Assembly: GCA_025617745.1 (NCBI GenBank)
Contig: CM046855.1
Coordinates: 41,983,663-42,047,662 of the forward strand
Direction of reading: 5' to 3'
Length of the DNA stretch: 64,000 bases
Source of the DNA: Heliocidaris erythrogramma
Taxonomy: Eukaryota > Echinodermata > Echinoidea > Camarodonta > Echinometridae
This document shows positions 26,614-64,000 of this stretch, piece after piece. Every line of letters begins with the position of its first letter. Positions within the stretch are counted from its first letter, which is position 1. The notes under the pieces were generated by a model, which saw only the letters and a list, made by a program, of their open reading frames with translations, was not told the DNA's origin and made no database searches. The position numbers were made by a program, and so were the translations under genes.

Positions 26614-28201
26614 AATACAATACAATACAATACAATAAGCATTTAGTACGCCCTTCCCATAAGGCTCGGAGCGTTTACAAAATATTTAAATTATAGAACA
26701 CATTATAATTTGTATTTGTATATAAACACAAATCATAGGGAGACAAAATGTAATGAATGTACCTGTTACAAAGTTTGATAGCGGATTTAAAATAAATATG
26801 ATTTTACAGCTTTTTTAAAGGTCTTTATGGATGCTGACTGTCTGATGGTCAAGGGGAGATTATTCCATAGCCTAGATGCAGTAACTGTGAAAGTCCTATC
26901 ACCTGACAAATTTCGGGTAATTGGGTAGCTGAGCTGAAGGTTGTGATTTGAGGATCTGAGATTTCTACTAGGTGTATATACAGTTAAGCATTCAGATATG
27001 TACCCTGGAGCCTGGTTATTGATAGATTTATAAACATAAAGAACTAATTTGAAGATGATACGTTTTTGAATGGGCAGCCAGTGAAGGGAACGAAGTAAAG
27101 GTTGGGAAGAATGACTTCTGCCAACCTCAAAAACAAGACGTGCAGCCCAATTCTGTAGACGCTGTAGACGGCTTACATGAGACTTTGGTATAGAGGAAAG
27201 AAGCCCATTACAATAGTCTAGTCTGGAAAGAATAAGTGACCTTACAGCATGATGACAAGTAGTTTGATCAATAAATTTACGAATCCTAGATATATTCCTC
27301 AAATGAAAAATCACACTGCGGCAAACATTGTTAATGTGTGCTGACATAGTCATGTTAACATCAAAAAAGGCACCCAGATTCCTTATTGAATCCGATGGAT
27401 GTATAGAAACTTCACCAACTGACAGTGTCAAATCTGGCAAATTTTTGTAATTGTATGGTGATGCAGCAATGAAAAATTCAGTTTTACTATCATTGAGTTT
27501 TAACTTATTTGCTGTCAGCCAGTTCCTTATATCTGATATACAAGATTGAAGTGAAAACATGGCCTTATCCAGTTCCCCAGGAATTTTAGGATCAAATGCT
27601 ACATACAACTGAATGTCATCAGCATAAACATGATACGAAACATTATGGTACCGGGCGATGTCGCCAACTGGGAGAATATAAACTGTGAAACCAGTGGGAC
27701 CTACAACTGAGCCCTGGGGTAAACCAAACCTAGAAATGGTTGGATCTGAAAGTTCCCCATCTATGTCGACTTGTGCTGTCCAGCCATCAAGATAAGACTG
27801 AAACCAATTCAACGCAGTTCCCCTAACACCAATTCTCTTTGACAAACGACAAATAAAAATTTTGTGGTCAATCGTATCGAAGGCTGCTGATAAATCTACA
27901 AGTACCACAAGAACTACTTTGTTTGAGTTCAATGAAAACATAATATCATTTTTAACCTTAATCAATGCAGATTCAGTACCATGTTTGGGTCTATAAGCAG
28001 ACTGGTGTGGATCAGCAAGATTATTAATCTCCATATGTTCCACCAGTCTTGAGCAAGCAATTTTCTCGATAAGTTTACCAACAAACGATAAATTGGATAC
28101 AGGCCTATAATTCTTCAAATTGTTTTTATCTAAAGATGAATTTTTCAAAAGAGGTCTTATGATTGCATGGTGAGCCTTCTGTGGAAAGACACCACATGAC
28201 A
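26614..28201 (-). mobile_element. CR1/L2-type non-LTR retrotransposon, 5'-truncated
   Basis: 1588 bp on the minus strand, flanked by the 7-bp duplication AAACATC (26607-26613 and 28202-28208), which duplicates MITE sequence. The 3' end is a short tandem tail (TATTG)n read on the minus strand, preceded by about 170 bp of 3' UTR shared with 24413-24722. The 5' end is truncated within the reverse-transcriptase region, so the endonuclease domain is absent. It is the youngest-looking retroelement here, since its long frame is intact. Confidence 0.9.
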
Positions 28202-28211
28202 AAACATCCAT
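26787..28211 (-). CDS. Reverse transcriptase (CR1/L2-type ORF2), N-terminally truncated
   Basis: A 474-residue uninterrupted frame. From the N-terminus: fingers motif PVSNLSFVGKLIEK, palm motif with the first catalytic Asp in VVLVDLSAAFDTIDH (about residue 100), LPQGSVVGP, the catalytic YADDIQLY (about 200), then the thumb and C-terminal region (SRLDYCNGLL, LHWLPI, FTVTASRLWNNLP). The C-terminal pattern is that of CR1/L2-clade elements. The enzyme copies element RNA at a nicked target. Full-length ORF2 would also have an N-terminal AP-like endonuclease, which is missing. The apparent start codon (28209-28211) lies beyond the element boundary, in the duplicated flank and MITE, so translation from it is accidental. 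The copy should be immobile. Confidence 0.92.
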   Translation of the reverse strand: MDVLSCGVFPQKAHHAIIRPLLKNSSLDKNNLKNYRPVSNLSFVGKLIEKIACSRLVEHMEINNLADPHQSAYRPKHGTESALIKVKNDIMFSLNSNKVVLVVLVDLSAAFDTIDHKIFICRLSKRIGVRGTALNWFQSYLDGWTAQVDIDGELSDPTISRFGLPQGSVVGPTGFTVYILPVGDIARYHNVSYHVYADDIQLYVAFDPKIPGELDKAMFSLQSCISDIRNWLTANKLKLNDSKTEFFIAASPYNYKNLPDLTLSVGEVSIHPSDSIRNLGAFFDVNMTMSAHINNVCRSVIFHLRNISRIRKFIDQTTCHHAVRSLILSRLDYCNGLLSSIPKSHVSRLQRLQNWAARLVFEVGRSHSSQPLLRSLHWLPIQKRIIFKLVLYVYKSINNQAPGYISECLTVYTPSRNLRSSNHNLQLSYPITRNLSGDRTFTVTASRLWNNLPLTIRQSASIKTFKKAVKSYLF

Positions 28212-28320
28212 AACTTTCTTAGTCCTTGTCCGATTTCTTTCAAACTTTCACCATCCTGTTTTTCTTATTTTTCTGCTTTCACACAAATCAACTTATTACC
28301 AAGGTTGGATTGCCCTTTAA

Positions 28321-40522: not shown

Positions 40523-40868
40523 GGATTTACGCTAGTGGGAGGAAATCTTCGACAGATCTTCATCACCACAAGCTTCATGCTGATCGATTTGTTGCCTTCA
40601 GAATTGGTTATTGATATTGTGTATCTATGCCTTTTTAAAATTAGCTTTTCATTTATTTCATTTATACATTCCTTCCTTCCCACTTCTTCCATCCACTTCC
40701 TTCCTTTATTCATTCATTCATTCTCAGATTCTAATAAGTCTCTTTACAGATACCATAGAAGAAAAATATCCGCTCGTTAACGTCATGCTTATTATTATCG
40801 GCAAAATTAGTTCGCGCGGTGAGGATAAGAAGATCATTGAACCAGTACCAAAACAACGCGAAACAACC

Positions 40869-41117
40869 ATGGCTGCCAATCCAGGGAGGAACGGCTCTTG
40901 CTCTTCTCACGCCTCAGAAAGATCTTCTGCTTGCTCTTCATCGAATTCATCCGGATCCAAAAACAACACTTTAAGCACAAGAAGTAGCCATGATATTTAC
41001 GAGTTGGATGACTCGAAATGTGGCTGGTTGTTGAAGAGATCTCGGGTGTCCAAGAAATGGAAAAAGCGATGGTTCGCACTGAGAAGGGATGAGCTGATTT
41101 ATGGACACAACTCAGAG
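40869..41117 (+). CDS. PH domain-CaaX protein, exon 1
   Basis: First coding exon of a two-exon gene. I chose the ATG at 40869 (context AACAACCATGGCT, a strong eukaryotic start); the frame is open further upstream but that part is not protein-like. Encodes 83 residues: a Ser-rich linker (about 10-45: NGSCSSHASERSSACSSSNS), then the start of a PH domain, CGWLLKRSRVSKKWKKRWFA and LRRDELIYGHNSE. The basic pattern K-x-R...K-KW-KKRWF between strands 1 and 2 matches phosphoinositide-binding PH domains. The exon stops at GAG with donor GTGATG in phase 0. An additional 5' noncoding exon is possible (CTTTACAG near 40749 could be an acceptor). PH domains bring signalling proteins to membranes. Confidence 0.85.
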
Positions 41118-43193
41118 GTGATGAATGTCTTCAATGATGTTCATGCATAAAAGCAATACAATGTATTTCTTACATTTAATGATGATGAGTGAATGATCAG
41201 TCTTGTGTAGAGAGTGAAATGTCATCATTTGTTTTTAACTTAAAATGTTTATTTTTTGTTTAAACTTAAGGGGGAAAAAAGATCTGAGATTCAAGTCTTC
41301 AAAAAAGTTCAATTCAAGAAAGACAAGATGGAGTCAGACAGAGAGAGAGAGAGGGAGAGAAAGACATGAAAGAGGGAGAGTCTAACAAAACTTTGATACT
41401 GTGGGTCATTTCATCAAAGCGTTATAACTTCTTCTGGCTACTCAACATTCCATCAGGAACCAAACGACTAACGAGGAGGATGAGGGATTGCGCAATGTTG
41501 CTTAAGTAGGCCTAGTCCTTATTACTGGAGTCTTCGTTGCGGAAGAAACTGGTTGCTGCAAGTTTGAATGTGTTGTTGTCTGCTATGCTTTGGATGTCGG
41601 GTGGTAGTGAGTTCCAGTCCTTGGTGGTACGTGGAATGTAGGAGTGTTCGAAACAGTTGGTGAGGGTGGAGTATTGTATGAAGGAGTTTCCTGAAGTATG
41701 TCTTGTGGCTCGTGTAGCTGGACGTAGGTAGTCCGACACCGGCAGGGCCAAGTGCCCCCCCCCCAGGCCTTGTGCAATATACTGACCCTCGAAACGACAA
41801 GATCAGCAACATCTTGACACTGTCACTCAACTTGTCCGCTAAGTGTTTCACAAAGCCGTCTTTGCCAAGACCAGCGACAACTTCCCTGACAAGTGACTTG
41901 ACGCTACTACAAAGCTATCATATCTTTTTAGAATGCCATTACAAAGCCAGCTTTTAGTTAGTCTATGGGCTGCGAAAAAAATGAAAACTATAAATTTAGA
42001 GGAAAATTACTTTCTGATTTCCAAGCACTTTCCATTATCAAATAGTTTTGACCCCCCCCCCCCCGACAAGTACATGTATGATGGGGAGCCCCATGTCCGC
42101 GCATCTAAGGTTTTGATCTGAAAATGAACAAGAATTTCTTCAATATTCCTCTAAAGCTTAATTTTATATTATTCCTGATATTCTAAAGAGTAAGTCTGCA
42201 AAAAATCTCATCAAAATTAGAGCAAGAACAATGCCAAGAAACTGTGGTCATGTCATTTGAACATTGAAAAAAACAATGGTGCCCATGTCTGCGCACTCAT
42301 TCATTTTACACGCAGTTCAGGAGTTTTGACGTGAAAGACAACATTTTAAGGCATGTGAATAAAAAATGTCTGAAATAAGACCGTTTTTCATTATTTTGAC
42401 TCGTTTTTTGCATGAATACCTATCGCTATGATAAAGATGAAAAGTTTGTGTTCGTTGCGTGTTTTGTTTTATTAGAATCGCGCAGTTACGCGTGTGCGCA
42501 GACTTGGGCACTCTAGCCATACATAAGATTTCACATTGTCTTCACATCAGTAGCAATTTGCTACCATAGAAGCAGCATAAGTAACATAAGTTTTTGTTTT
42601 AACAGAATAATTATATCATTAAAAAAAAAAAATTTCGCTGCCAACTTTCGATATTTTGGAACAGTTTGGGAAAAACTGAGCCCCAAACTCTGTTTGGGTA
42701 ATTGACGATAAATCCAATGGGTTGTGATAAAGAGTATTATTTTTAGCCGATGAGTATCGATATCAATTGAGTTGTCGTTCATATGCCTTTGTGAAACAGT
42801 TTGTCAGGTCTGTGACATTTCCGTAGATGACTGACAATGACTGTCATGGAGTTGATTTGATGGAACGACCCCCAGGTTATGTTCATATATTTCAAACTTT
42901 TTTTAATATAATTCTAATTCTGCTGTTATATAATACAATCTGTCACTTTTTTTTTGTTTTATTCTAAAAATACCTACATATAATTTCCCTTCAGAGTTTT
43001 ATATGGTGTTCCCTAGTAATATGTGCATGCAAATGGAAAATTTTTAGCATTAGACATGGCAAAAATATTCGCCAAGGAATGGCACCTGGCATCAGTTAAA
43101 AGAAATTTCAAGATGTCATGGACTGATGGATGTGAATGTTAAATGATGATATTAAAATGTATTTCTTTTCACTTTCCTGTTTTCATTTGATAG
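41118..43193 (+). other. Intron of the PH gene
   Basis: 2076 bp, donor GTGATG and acceptor TTCATTTGATAG. It contains a GAGA run (41341-41360), a minus-strand retroelement fragment (41512-41751), C-runs (about 41755 and 42053) and otherwise AT-rich DNA. Confidence 0.8.
41512..41751 (-). pseudogene. Non-LTR retroelement, C-terminal ORF2 fragment
   Basis: The 79-residue minus-strand frame carries YLRPATRATRHTSGNSFIQY, SYIPRTTKDWNSLPPDI and FKLAATSFF. The SYIPRT(T/I)KDWNSLP pattern is a hallmark of the C-terminal end of many non-LTR polyproteins, and it differs from the LWNNLP version at 26787-28211, so it is a different family. The 3' UTR would run to about 41400. It is truncated at a C-run near 41755 and lies antisense in the PH gene intron. 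Confidence 0.75.
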
Positions 43194-59850: not shown

Positions 59851-60179
59851 TCTTCAGAGACTGCTAATTTCTTGATTAATTGTTGGGTATAGCCATAACA
59901 TCGCAAGGGTTTCAAAGATGTTCAAAGATGTTCAAAGTCTGTATGATCAAAGCAATACTCCAGGAATATCACTCCAAAATGAAAGGTATATAGCGTGAAC
60001 GGAAAGATCATGTAGACCAAACAAAGATGTATATGATCATATAGTTGACAATATTCCATTTCCAACTCATTGGCTGAGTTTTCTTAAAGTGCGACAACAT
60101 AAGCATAAGTTACATGTAATTAGATAATTACCCAACTTATTCTCATTTCACATTATTTGTATTTCATTCTGATGAGGAG

Positions 60180-60793
60180 CACCATCTATCCCCCCTTTAG
60201 AGGGGTTCAAAGTTGATAAAGAAAATGTAGGTTTACTTGGAGACTTTAACATTAATGTTCTTCATGATGAAGGAATAGATGTGAAAGCTGAACGATTTCT
60301 AACTTCTTTGCAATGTTTGGGTCTACAGCAACTCATTACCTCACCAACCAGAGTGACTGAAACAACTTCCTCTCTTATTGACCATGTGTATACTAATATA
60401 ATTTCTCCTATTCATGCTGGAGTTATAGAAACTGATGTTTCAGACCATTTCCCCATCTTTGTTGCTTTTGAGCATCTCACAAATGCAAATAAAACAAAAA
60501 ACAAGAAGTTGGTATTTTGCACCTTTAGAAATTATGATATTCACAATTTTCATGAAGACCTTAGAGATAAAATAGATTGGAAATTTGTTAGTGGTTGTAC
60601 AGAAGTTAATAAATCATACTCTGTAGTTTGTGACATTTTTAGGCAAGTCTGTGACAGGCATGCACCAATTGTGTCATTAACTTCCAAGAAAAAGGGTAAA
60701 AATATTGGTAAAAAACCATGGATGACAAAGGCTATTCTAAAATCAATAAACAAGAAGCACAAATTGTATTCTAAACTTAAAGGTAGTACATAG
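60180..60793 (+). pseudogene. CR1/L2-type AP endonuclease, C-terminal fragment
   Basis: The frame is open from about 60182. It contains ENVGLLGDFNINVLHDEG (catalytic GDFN), LGLQQLITSPTRVTETTSSL, IDHVYTN and VSDHFPIFVAFE (catalytic SDH), which are the last conserved motifs of the element endonuclease. It continues into a linker KKPWMTKAILKSINKKHKLY (PWITKGLLKS-type, joining endonuclease to RT) and stops at 60793. Open for over 200 codons with no stop, so this copy is not very old. N-terminal endonuclease third and the whole RT are missing. Family differs from the L1-type fragment at 57121. Confidence 0.88.
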
Positions 60794-62153: not shown

Positions 62154-62781
62154 TTTTCTTAGTAATTGATGTTTTAATCATTATACAATTATGAGTGCAC
62201 TGTATATTTGTATCTAAGTGTGATCATAAAAACAAGTGGGGAATATCATGACGTCTTTTTAAGCTTGATTGTATAATTGTGAAACAAGCGGGGAAGAAAT
62301 CCCACAAGGTGTATAAACATTTCTTTGAAAAAAGATAACGAAAGTTTGAAAAAAGGAATTGCATTTTTTTTTTTAAACTTCTCGAATTTGTTCGTATCTG
62401 CTTAGTGCGCATGTTTTTGATTTACCGAGCCTGCTGATTGCCGCATTTGACATTTTAGGTCGCCGCGCATGCAAATTAGTTTATCTGAAAGAGATTTTGG
62501 TTTACGCGCATGCAAATTAATAGCTGTGCATGTTAAGTAGGTGACTGCCCTTGTGGAATGCCTGTGTTCGAGCCAAGGCCGTGAGCAGAATCAAGGTTGT
62601 GTAGAGCAGTTATATTTGAGACATATATCAAAAGCAGTTGCAGAGAGTAAGTGGGCTAAGATTTTTGTAGCGTTATTTTACAAATTATGTAAATGTTAGG
62701 GTACATATATCTGGAAATGTGAAGGATTCCAAAGAATTATAAAAGTTGTCTTACTCTCAGTAGATTCATTTTACTTCACAT
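62154..62781. other. No gene seen; two octamer motifs
   Basis: GCGCATGCAAATTA occurs at 62466 and again at 62507 with the octamer ATGCAAAT (POU/Oct-factor site). AAACAAG(T/C)GGGGAA occurs at 62231 and 62283. These paired motifs could be part of an LTR or regulatory region that follows the acidic ORF. Confidence 0.35.
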
Positions 62782-62790
62782 CGCATTGAT

Positions 62791-63630
62791 GGGGAGCACT
62801 ATATGAGCGTCATTTGGGTACCGACGTCACACGCCTCATTAATATTCATCAACAAGTCGGATCAGTAAGCTATGCATATTCATGATCGGTCTTTCGGATC
62901 CCGCGCGCACGCGCTCTTTAAAAACACATTAGCCGCCGACGTCTAGCGAGCTGCATGTACTTCTGTATTAATTATATTGTTGTTTTTTCTGACTTCGTTT
63001 CTGACATTTCTGACAAGTGACATCGTTCTTAACATCGTTTGAACCCTTTACCATCATGGATGATGATGCTGGGGATTCCTGGCCATGGGCCATTTCATCG
63101 TGGACATCACTCAACCCTGAAGGTCTCAGAGGTTGGGTGAGAGATGTCAATGATGCTACTTCTTCATTGAAAATGTATGAATCGGCAAAGTCCCTGCACT
63201 TTGTTGGCAACCGCAGGACCCCAAACTTCGGCTGCCATTTTCTTGCAGGAGCAAGCGCAGCGTCAGGTGTACATGTAGGTGCGGAGAAAAGTTCATCAGG
63301 TAAGTAACTTAATTACTTGACTGTATTTTACTTGGCATTAGATCTAACGTTAGGTCTAATTAGATCTACTTGGGTTTAATTGACTTCACTTCACAGCTTG
63401 TCTCATAGGCATGCCTATCTCATAATCGCCAATAAATATGGACCAAACTAACATGTTAGACCTCTAGACTATCTGTTTTTCATGTACACTGGTGTAAACA
63501 CCACACAAACACACACACACACATTGCCGTGATTTATGAATATGCATAGTATTTCAGATCCGCGAGGTTGATGAATAATTAATGAGGCGTGTGACGTCGA
63601 TACCAGATTTACGCCTATATAGTGCTCCCC
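62791..63630. mobile_element. 840-bp inverted-repeat element with 9-bp target duplication
   Basis: CGCATTGAT is perfectly duplicated at 62782-62790 and 63631-63639. The element starts GGGGAGCACTATAT and ends ATATAGTGCTCCCC, and the inverted arms are similar over about 105 bp (GACGTCACACGCCTCATTAA, ATTCATCAAC, CTATGCATATTCAT on both sides). Nine-bp duplications with long TIRs fit Mutator-like elements; Merlin elements (8-9 bp) are the alternative. No transposase is present. The 630-bp interior carries a protein-like exon with a strong donor, so it looks like a non-autonomous element carrying a gene fragment. Confidence 0.85.
63056..63299 (+). CDS. Orphan first exon inside the inverted-repeat element
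   Basis: ATG at 63056 (ACCATCATGGATG context) opens 81 codons: MDDDAGDSWPWAISSWTSLN, GLRGWVRDVNDATSSLKMYE, then FVGNRRTPNFGCHFLAGASA and EKSSSG, ending TCATCAG|GTAAGT, a consensus donor, in phase 1. Four Trp in the first 30 residues is unusual. Upstream inside the element, TTTAAAAA (62918-62925) could serve as a TATA-like box. The protein is not recognised: it could be exon 1 of the element's own lost transposase gene or a captured host exon. No matching acceptor or second exon was found before the right TIR. Confidence 0.45.
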
Positions 63631-63639
63631 CGCATTGAT

Positions 63640-64000
63640 AGTTGTGAAATATGTCGAGTGTTGACAATACTTTAATCTAGCTGATTCACAGAATTTCATT
63701 GCAATTTATTGGGAAATATTCTTGGTACATTGTAAAGAGAACTTTGAGATTGCAAATAGATTTTAGGGAGTAGAGTCACAGAAATAGTCATTTGTTATAG
63801 AAATTGAATGAATACAGAGAGATTTATCGGTACAGTAACTGGGTTTAATCTGAGACGAGACTTGCCGAAAGGCACATGGTCGTTGGGGGCGCTATAGATG
63901 TAAACAATAGAATAAAGATGGCGGCGCCCATGGGTTAGATGTTGCTGTGGTGTGAGGATAACTTTCATTTTTATATGCATCTTGTTTATGCAAAGTTGTT
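63640..64000. other. No gene seen; YY1-type motif near the edge
   Basis: AAGATGGCGGC at 63915-63925 is a perfect YY1 consensus, a motif often found at promoters and just after transcription starts. The ATG in it opens only a six-codon frame. Anything it belongs to lies outside the window. Confidence 0.4.

Follow-up and report, generated by a model that had tools for sequence, protein, structure and literature searches.

Table 1 of PMC6446971 lists PHD, FLYWCH, SWIM, C2H2, CCHC and RING fingers and, among other motifs, FAR1, with no CaRF among them, and the same paper describes Rehavkus elements as having 9-bp target site duplications (TSDs), terminal inverted repeats (TIRs) of 26–400 bp, a PHD finger and a minisatellite before the 3′ TIR. 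PMC2877716 presents CaRF as a single gene in each species that has no relatives among the other DNA-binding families; within the site chCaRE (RRARYGAGGC), A3 and G6A7G8 are strictly required by CaRF, and positions 1, 9 and 10 weakly so (PMC2877716).

The element family studied here resembles the MULEs of animals in its 9-bp duplications (8–11 bp in MULEs) and long TIRs, and in a related CaRF-MULE gene on contig C1 the MULE DDE domain (PF10551) is accompanied by a SWIM finger (PF04434); the family differs from them in its DNA-binding part, which is CaRF-type (PF15299). The Pfam name of PF15299 is ALS2CR8, which we take to be CaRF (calcium-response factor). With CaRF the family shares PF15299 and TIR arms that carry chCaRE positions 3–10, whereas it departs from the single-gene pattern in that one genome has 17 clusters, of which 8 adjoin a MULE catalytic domain and one lies within the TIRs of an element. 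Among the matches listed in open-licence papers, no literature link between ALS2CR8/CaRF and a transposase was found; one paper names ALS2CR8 only in a table of LINE1 effects, without a transposase link. The CARF protein of PMC5387711 is a different protein from CaRF and was set aside. Our analysis indicates that the element is probably an internally deleted, non-autonomous member of the Mutator superfamily, whose parent gene led from the exon still present here (exon 1) into a CaRF-type DNA-binding domain.

The element and its insertion site

Coordinates without a contig label are positions in the window, the whole 64-kb stretch of DNA analysed, and genome-wide searches were made in the host assembly (1.06 Gb, 26 contigs). 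The TIR-bounded element spans 62791–63630 (840 bp), with a perfect 9-bp duplication, CGCATTGAT, on either side (62782–62790 and 63631–63639), and its exact ends are GGGGAGCACTATAT at 62791 and ATATAGTGCTCCCC at 63630; both the duplication and the perfect terminal inverted repeats agree with the original prediction. Arms of about 105 bp had also been proposed: the arms are real and slightly shorter, 93 bp on the 5′ side (62791–62883, plus strand) and 95 bp on the 3′ side (63536–63630, minus strand) by arm alignment, TIR pattern search and arm consensus, with an identity of ~83% to each other. When the flanks were joined, they matched 10 other places in the genome across the joint, and all five of those examined run through without the element and with one copy of CGCATTGAT. 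Such empty sites are available because the flanking DNA (62594–63889) belongs to a repeat of low copy number that recurs at length, with 87–93% identity, on C8, C9 and C11. The window element is a real insertion.

Inside the arms, an open reading frame begins with an ATG at 63056 and extends on the plus strand to 63299 (81 codons plus one nucleotide), a probable coding exon on account of its homologous first exons elsewhere in the genome. It ends in CAG followed by GTAAGT (63300–63305), a putative phase 1 splice donor recognised by its motif, so that the 81-codon frame with a consensus donor was correctly described beforehand. The window copy contains no partner exon for this donor and the exon, if transcribed, could therefore splice only to downstream host sequence. 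Copy comparison divides the remainder into a remnant of the sequence after exon 1 (63300–63482, plus strand), collinear with the longer copy L020 to element position ~692, an internal deletion junction at 63481–63484, and a 3′ subterminal region (63484–63535, plus strand) that is common to other copies and contains a short CA repeat.

Elsewhere in the window there are retroelement remains, namely a reverse transcriptase frame at 26790–28247 on the minus strand (PF00078, 112 bits) and an endonuclease-like frame under the Pfam cut-off at 60176–60790 on the plus strand, and a plus-strand frame at 40584–41147 that matches the beginning of a PH domain (29.0 bits) and is probably an exon of a host gene.

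Family copies and internal deletions

The window element has 80 DNA matches in the host assembly. Its TIR ends were sought with a 24-base pattern allowing up to 3 mismatches, which found 41 ends against 1 for the reversed pattern used as control; four of the 41 resemble chance matches, each having 3 mismatches and lying away from known copies. For the 15 two-ended copies, the 9-bp flanks are identical in 11, agree at 8 of 9 positions in one and are mismatched in three, and the 11 represent nine distinct duplications, two pairs being duplicates of each other. The family is low-copy, with ~20 relatives in the genome, and these relatives, together with the empty sites, bear out the earlier view of a transposon-like element.

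In a comparison of 14 interiors, the window's included, the 5′ breakpoints among the matches listed fall at positions ~204–221, 413–434 and 692, and past the breakpoint most copies continue into an array of ~200-bp units and then into the common 3′ end. The longer copies have minisatellite units of 193 and 213 bp before the 3′ TIR; the window copy has no minisatellite and corresponds to an L020-like element from which everything between position ~692 and the final 150 bp has been lost. A separate comparison of 16 copies showed no unshared stretch of at least 60 bp in 11 and such stretches in five (L020, L013, L019, L022 and a copy on C5). It had been proposed that different interiors between the same TIRs would mean capture and one shared, longer interior would mean deletion: 11 copies are made up of family sequence alone, and the other five have unshared stretches. 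Judged from these comparisons, the window element is an ordinary internal-deletion derivative, and nested deletions of the interior are the main difference between copies.

The unshared DNA amounts to 2.0 kb with a reverse transcriptase frame in L013, 3.2 kb and 139 bp in L019, 1.2 and 3.9 kb in L022, and 12.0 and 1.3 kb in the C5 copy; in the last three it may represent nested insertions or acquired DNA. Since five copies hold such stretches, uptake of foreign DNA by some copies is possible.

Several copies have features of their own. The L013 frame (L013:4122–5762) encodes 547 aa with a reverse transcriptase match (PF00078, 37.5 bits), and its C-terminal part seems to us to resemble a GIY-YIG nuclease, as in Penelope-like elements. 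The C5 copy (C5:31774142–31789365, 15.2 kb) lacks matching 9-bp flanks and contains a 1446-aa frame on the opposite strand (C5:31779801–31784138), of which 1399 aa gave no match in a Pfam scan. L022 (C13:19228271–19236789) is rearranged, with two 5′-type ends, and L023 (C12:45742894–45744321) has two 3′-type ends around an inverted minisatellite; each is flanked by a perfect 9-bp duplication.

CaRF-type exons and MULE transposase genes

L020 (C3:10900141–10904924; 4784 bp; 9-bp duplication CTTACAAGA) is the one copy with CaRF exons among the longer copies (L013, L019, L022, C5 and others). It holds, in order and on the same strand, exon 1, part of a CaRF exon 2 and exon 3. Joined from DGVPF on, which leaves out a repeat-derived part, the exon 2 part and exon 3 score 54.6 bits against PF15299 (E 1.8e-14; gathering cut-off 28.9 bits); the join that includes the repeat-derived part scores 60.4 bits, and the exon 2 frame alone 28.5 bits, just under the cut-off. 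The copy is damaged: a dispersed repeat, 85–86% identical to all seven repeat copies compared, covers L020 positions 1438–2074, where exon 2 would begin, so that this part of the exon has been lost together with the true acceptor; splicing of exon 1 to exon 2 in L020 can for this reason only be presumed. An in-frame splice between these exons was considered and dropped, its acceptor and the first part of its frame lying within the dispersed repeat. The intron between exons 2 and 3 is in phase 0. Candidate splice sites that agree with it in phase occur at this intron in loci at C6:21895119 (C6a), C6:42881785 (C6b) and C1, and after exon 3 at C6a, C6b, C12 and C1; at these CaRF loci the sites were chosen by eye from candidate lists.

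Searched as protein, the window exon has 13 matches in the genome, 8 in the element family and 5 distant ones with identities of 40, 40, 43, 31 and 34%, the last of which (C12:34435023, E 0.43) is not significant genome-wide. Homologues of exon 1 lie at C6:21895119, C18:12342527 and C6:42881785 and, weakly, at C12:34435023, and CaRF exons follow them in the same order at both C6 loci and at C12. That the window exon is non-coding and its frame open by chance would accord with the lack of any Pfam family matching it, but this idea has a negligible probability given homologues at 31–43% protein identity, three of the loci lying upstream of CaRF exons, and a donor motif placed at the very end of the frame. 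Two CaRF-type loci ~164 kb apart, C6:21895119 and C6:22059593, have identical exon-1 search scores, and no MULE part was detected at either.

PF15299 has 37 matches in the genome at E up to 0.1, of which 16 exceed the cut-off, and these group into 17 clusters including L020, 13 of which have a match over the cut-off. By manual count from the profile matches, eight of the 17 clusters (C1, C3:10.5 Mb, C6:42.89, C10, C16, C20 and two C9 loci, the last two with identical DDE scores) are followed, in the same orientation and at no more than 12 kb, by a MULE-type DDE exon. Conversely, eight of the nine DDE matches of the CaRF-linked lineage adjoin a CaRF cluster, the exception being C12:33794628. 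On C1, the CaRF C-terminus (54.6 bits) and the MULE domain (41.0 bits) share one 297-aa frame, and a later frame encodes a SWIM finger (21.6 bits; cut-off 19.6); at C6:42881785–42894852 an exon-1 homologue, CaRF exons and the MULE domain occur in this order. The motifs LDATYKTT, MTD and NNGLERQN, presumably the D, D and E sites of the MULE domain, occur on C1, and similar ones at C6:42.89 Mb.

Multi-exon CaRF-MULE DDE genes are contained in C1:69762500–69772499 and C6:42877000–42896999, and further CaRF-MULE genes lie at C3:10.51, C10:2.77, C16:4.77, C20:5.22 and C9:26.7 Mb. The CaRF-MULE loci, which are diverged and low-copy, may be host genes. The 24-base pattern found no TIRs of the window family at them, and no inverted repeat was found flanking the C6:42.88 Mb gene within the 20 kb read. 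A search for inverted repeats at C6a, C6b, C12 and C18 found an element at C18 only, with weak matches at C12 and C6a. A CaRF exon at C9:44628856 is followed 2.9 kb downstream on the same strand by a sequence (C9:44631721) 54% identical to a PHD region on C18. The CaRF region of five members matched ALS2CR8 alone in Pfam in all five cases. A profile compared with PDB sequences gave nothing meaningful on a fold link between CaRF and zinc fingers (best E 0.071); the CaRF C-C-H-H spacing may resemble that of WRKY-GCM1 fingers.

Because CaRF exons follow it in L020 and its relatives elsewhere stand next to CaRF and MULE exons, the window exon most likely opened the gene for a CaRF-type MULE transposase belonging to the element itself, as far as can be judged by sequence comparison. 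The original prediction had offered a transposase first exon as its alternative reading; the CaRF-type continuation in L020 speaks for this reading, and a DDE domain between the same TIRs, which would have completed it, did not appear in the copies read with CaRF-MULE exons as queries. The assignment is thus an indirect one, as no catalytic domain came to light within these TIRs in any copy; searches by TIR DNA, by the 24-base and looser patterns and by the inner TIR block yielded no autonomous copy. The parent would have had TIRs of ~95 bp, 9-bp duplications, a multi-exon transposase gene running inwards from the 5′ TIR and, as in the longer copies, a ~200-bp minisatellite before the 3′ end. 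Its gene would start with the window exon, spliced to CaRF (ALS2CR8) exons 2 and 3 that encode the DNA-binding domain, and would end in the MULE catalytic domain. Internal deletions would then have removed most of this gene, leaving short copies that presumably moved by cut and paste with transposase supplied in trans. The reading of a CaRF-MULE parent is weakened by the lack of a DDE domain within the TIRs, by the damage to L020, by the lack of family TIRs at the CaRF-MULE loci, by the fact that only two of 31 PF10551 matches adjoin a CaRF cluster (most MULE domains here being of other kinds), and by the lack of CaRF zinc exons and DDE in the C18 element described below.

The original prediction preferred capture of the Pack-MULE type. 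In terms of the present findings, the parent would have acquired the opening exons of a CaRF-like gene from the host, later copies would have lost them stepwise, and the transposase would be unrelated to the exon. MULEs are known to acquire host gene fragments (PMC6446971), and as in Pack-MULEs there are MULE-type ends around an exon without a transposase domain. The absence of a DDE domain between the window-family TIRs would also fit, as would the fact that the L020 exons come with introns from a gene family also present as low-copy loci, and the unshared inserts in L013, L019, L022 and C5 indicate that foreign DNA enters family elements by some route. Against capture, and different from Pack-MULEs, no host donor was found. 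With matches outside the family of 31–43%, exon 1 has no close donor (best 43%), and among the loci read the best identity to L020 is at most 54% for exon 2 and 64% for exon 3; DNA of the L020 interior matches elsewhere in the genome only in its dispersed repeat. Capture would moreover need a coincidence, since other members of the captured gene's family stand joined to a MULE transposase, and it would have to accommodate both a separate TIR element, on C18, that also begins with an exon-1 homologue and the CaRF-site core in the TIR arms. With the copies differing mainly by nested deletions, we consider host-gene capture improbable and retain the reading of an internally deleted CaRF-MULE element.

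Terminal repeats, a sister element and a possible origin of CaRF

Arm consensuses were built from 12 arms treated as 5′, including an L023 arm of 3′ type, and from 13 treated as 3′, with three disrupted arms omitted. The two consensuses agree at 81 of 97 lettered columns, and their longest identical run, 21 columns, is CGACGTCACACGCCTCATTAA. The inner TIR block, 22 bp long, lies at 62822–62843 on the minus strand in the 5′ arm (ATTAATGAGGCGTGTGACGTCG) and at 63578–63599 on the plus strand in the 3′ arm, where pattern search and arm consensus place it. Allowing up to 3 mismatches, the block has 39 matches in the genome, 31 of them exact, against 0 for the control, and AATGAG is kept in all 39.

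Each window arm has one match to the CaRF-site core, AATGAGGC, which lies in the inner block and fits chCaRE positions 3–10 (motif from PMC2877716). The full RRARYGAGGC has 0 matches in the window arms, failing at positions 1 and 2, and the C18 arms fit positions 5–10 only. ARYGAGGC occurs three times in the 64-kb window, two of these occurrences being the element's arms; it was present in 24 of 5000 first-order Markov sequences of the arm and in one of 591 tiles of 105 bp from the first 62 kb of the window, frequencies to be read with the fact that the match was sought post hoc, using three widths of the motif, once the published site was at hand. The conserved block would be a plausible binding site for the CaRF-type domain of the parent transposase.

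The C18 element (C18:12342356–12348187) is 5832 bp long, with 30-bp TIRs and a perfect 9-bp duplication, GTTAATTTA. It contains an exon-1 homologue ~166 bases from its TIR end and a 212-bp minisatellite ahead of its 3′ TIR, and neither CaRF zinc exons nor a DDE domain were detected in it. The C18 5′ TIR aligns in register with the 5′ arm of the window element (CTATnTnnGCGTCATTTGGG, score 25), a score reached by none of 500 shuffles (best 24); the other three comparisons of C18 and window arms score 25–29, are out of register, and one was reached by 1 of 500 shuffles. The C18 element also has 42-bp tandem repeats, and a further TIR end of its type lies at C19:1949639. Its interior contains what we take to be a Ulp1-like motif, where Pfam matched nothing.

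These features raise the question of a Rehavkus-type element, whose transposase would have a terminal PHD finger in place of SWIM, an identification that is compatible with the CaRF-MULE parent and that we regard as possible, though unlikely. The window family has the 9-bp duplication, a TIR length within the Rehavkus range and a minisatellite before the 3′ end, and C18 combines its exon-1 homologue, minisatellite and 9-bp TSD with a PHD-like finger. That finger scores 23.6 bits, just under the Pfam cut-off of 24.0, and, short of a profile search, no PHD finger was noticed between the window-family TIRs. Phantom of aphids is likewise listed with a minisatellite (PMC6446971), and the window family differs from Rehavkus in its CaRF-type exons, the likeness being judged from the published description.

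Taken with the CaRF-MULE genes, the inner block allows a tentative proposal, to which we would give somewhat less than an even chance: a lineage of MULE/Rehavkus-like transposases in animals uses the CaRF domain to bind DNA, CaRF is a relative domesticated with loss of the catalytic half, and (A)RYGAGGC is the old TIR site, which both arms of the window family have kept. The direction may have been from transposase to transcription factor or the reverse. The interest of the window element lies in the link that it makes between a transposon and an orphan DNA-binding family of vertebrates, and a transposon with a CaRF-type region hints at the origin of CaRF, a solitary vertebrate brain/neuronal regulator. 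If CaRF derives from a transposase, both its origin and its binding site would be explained.
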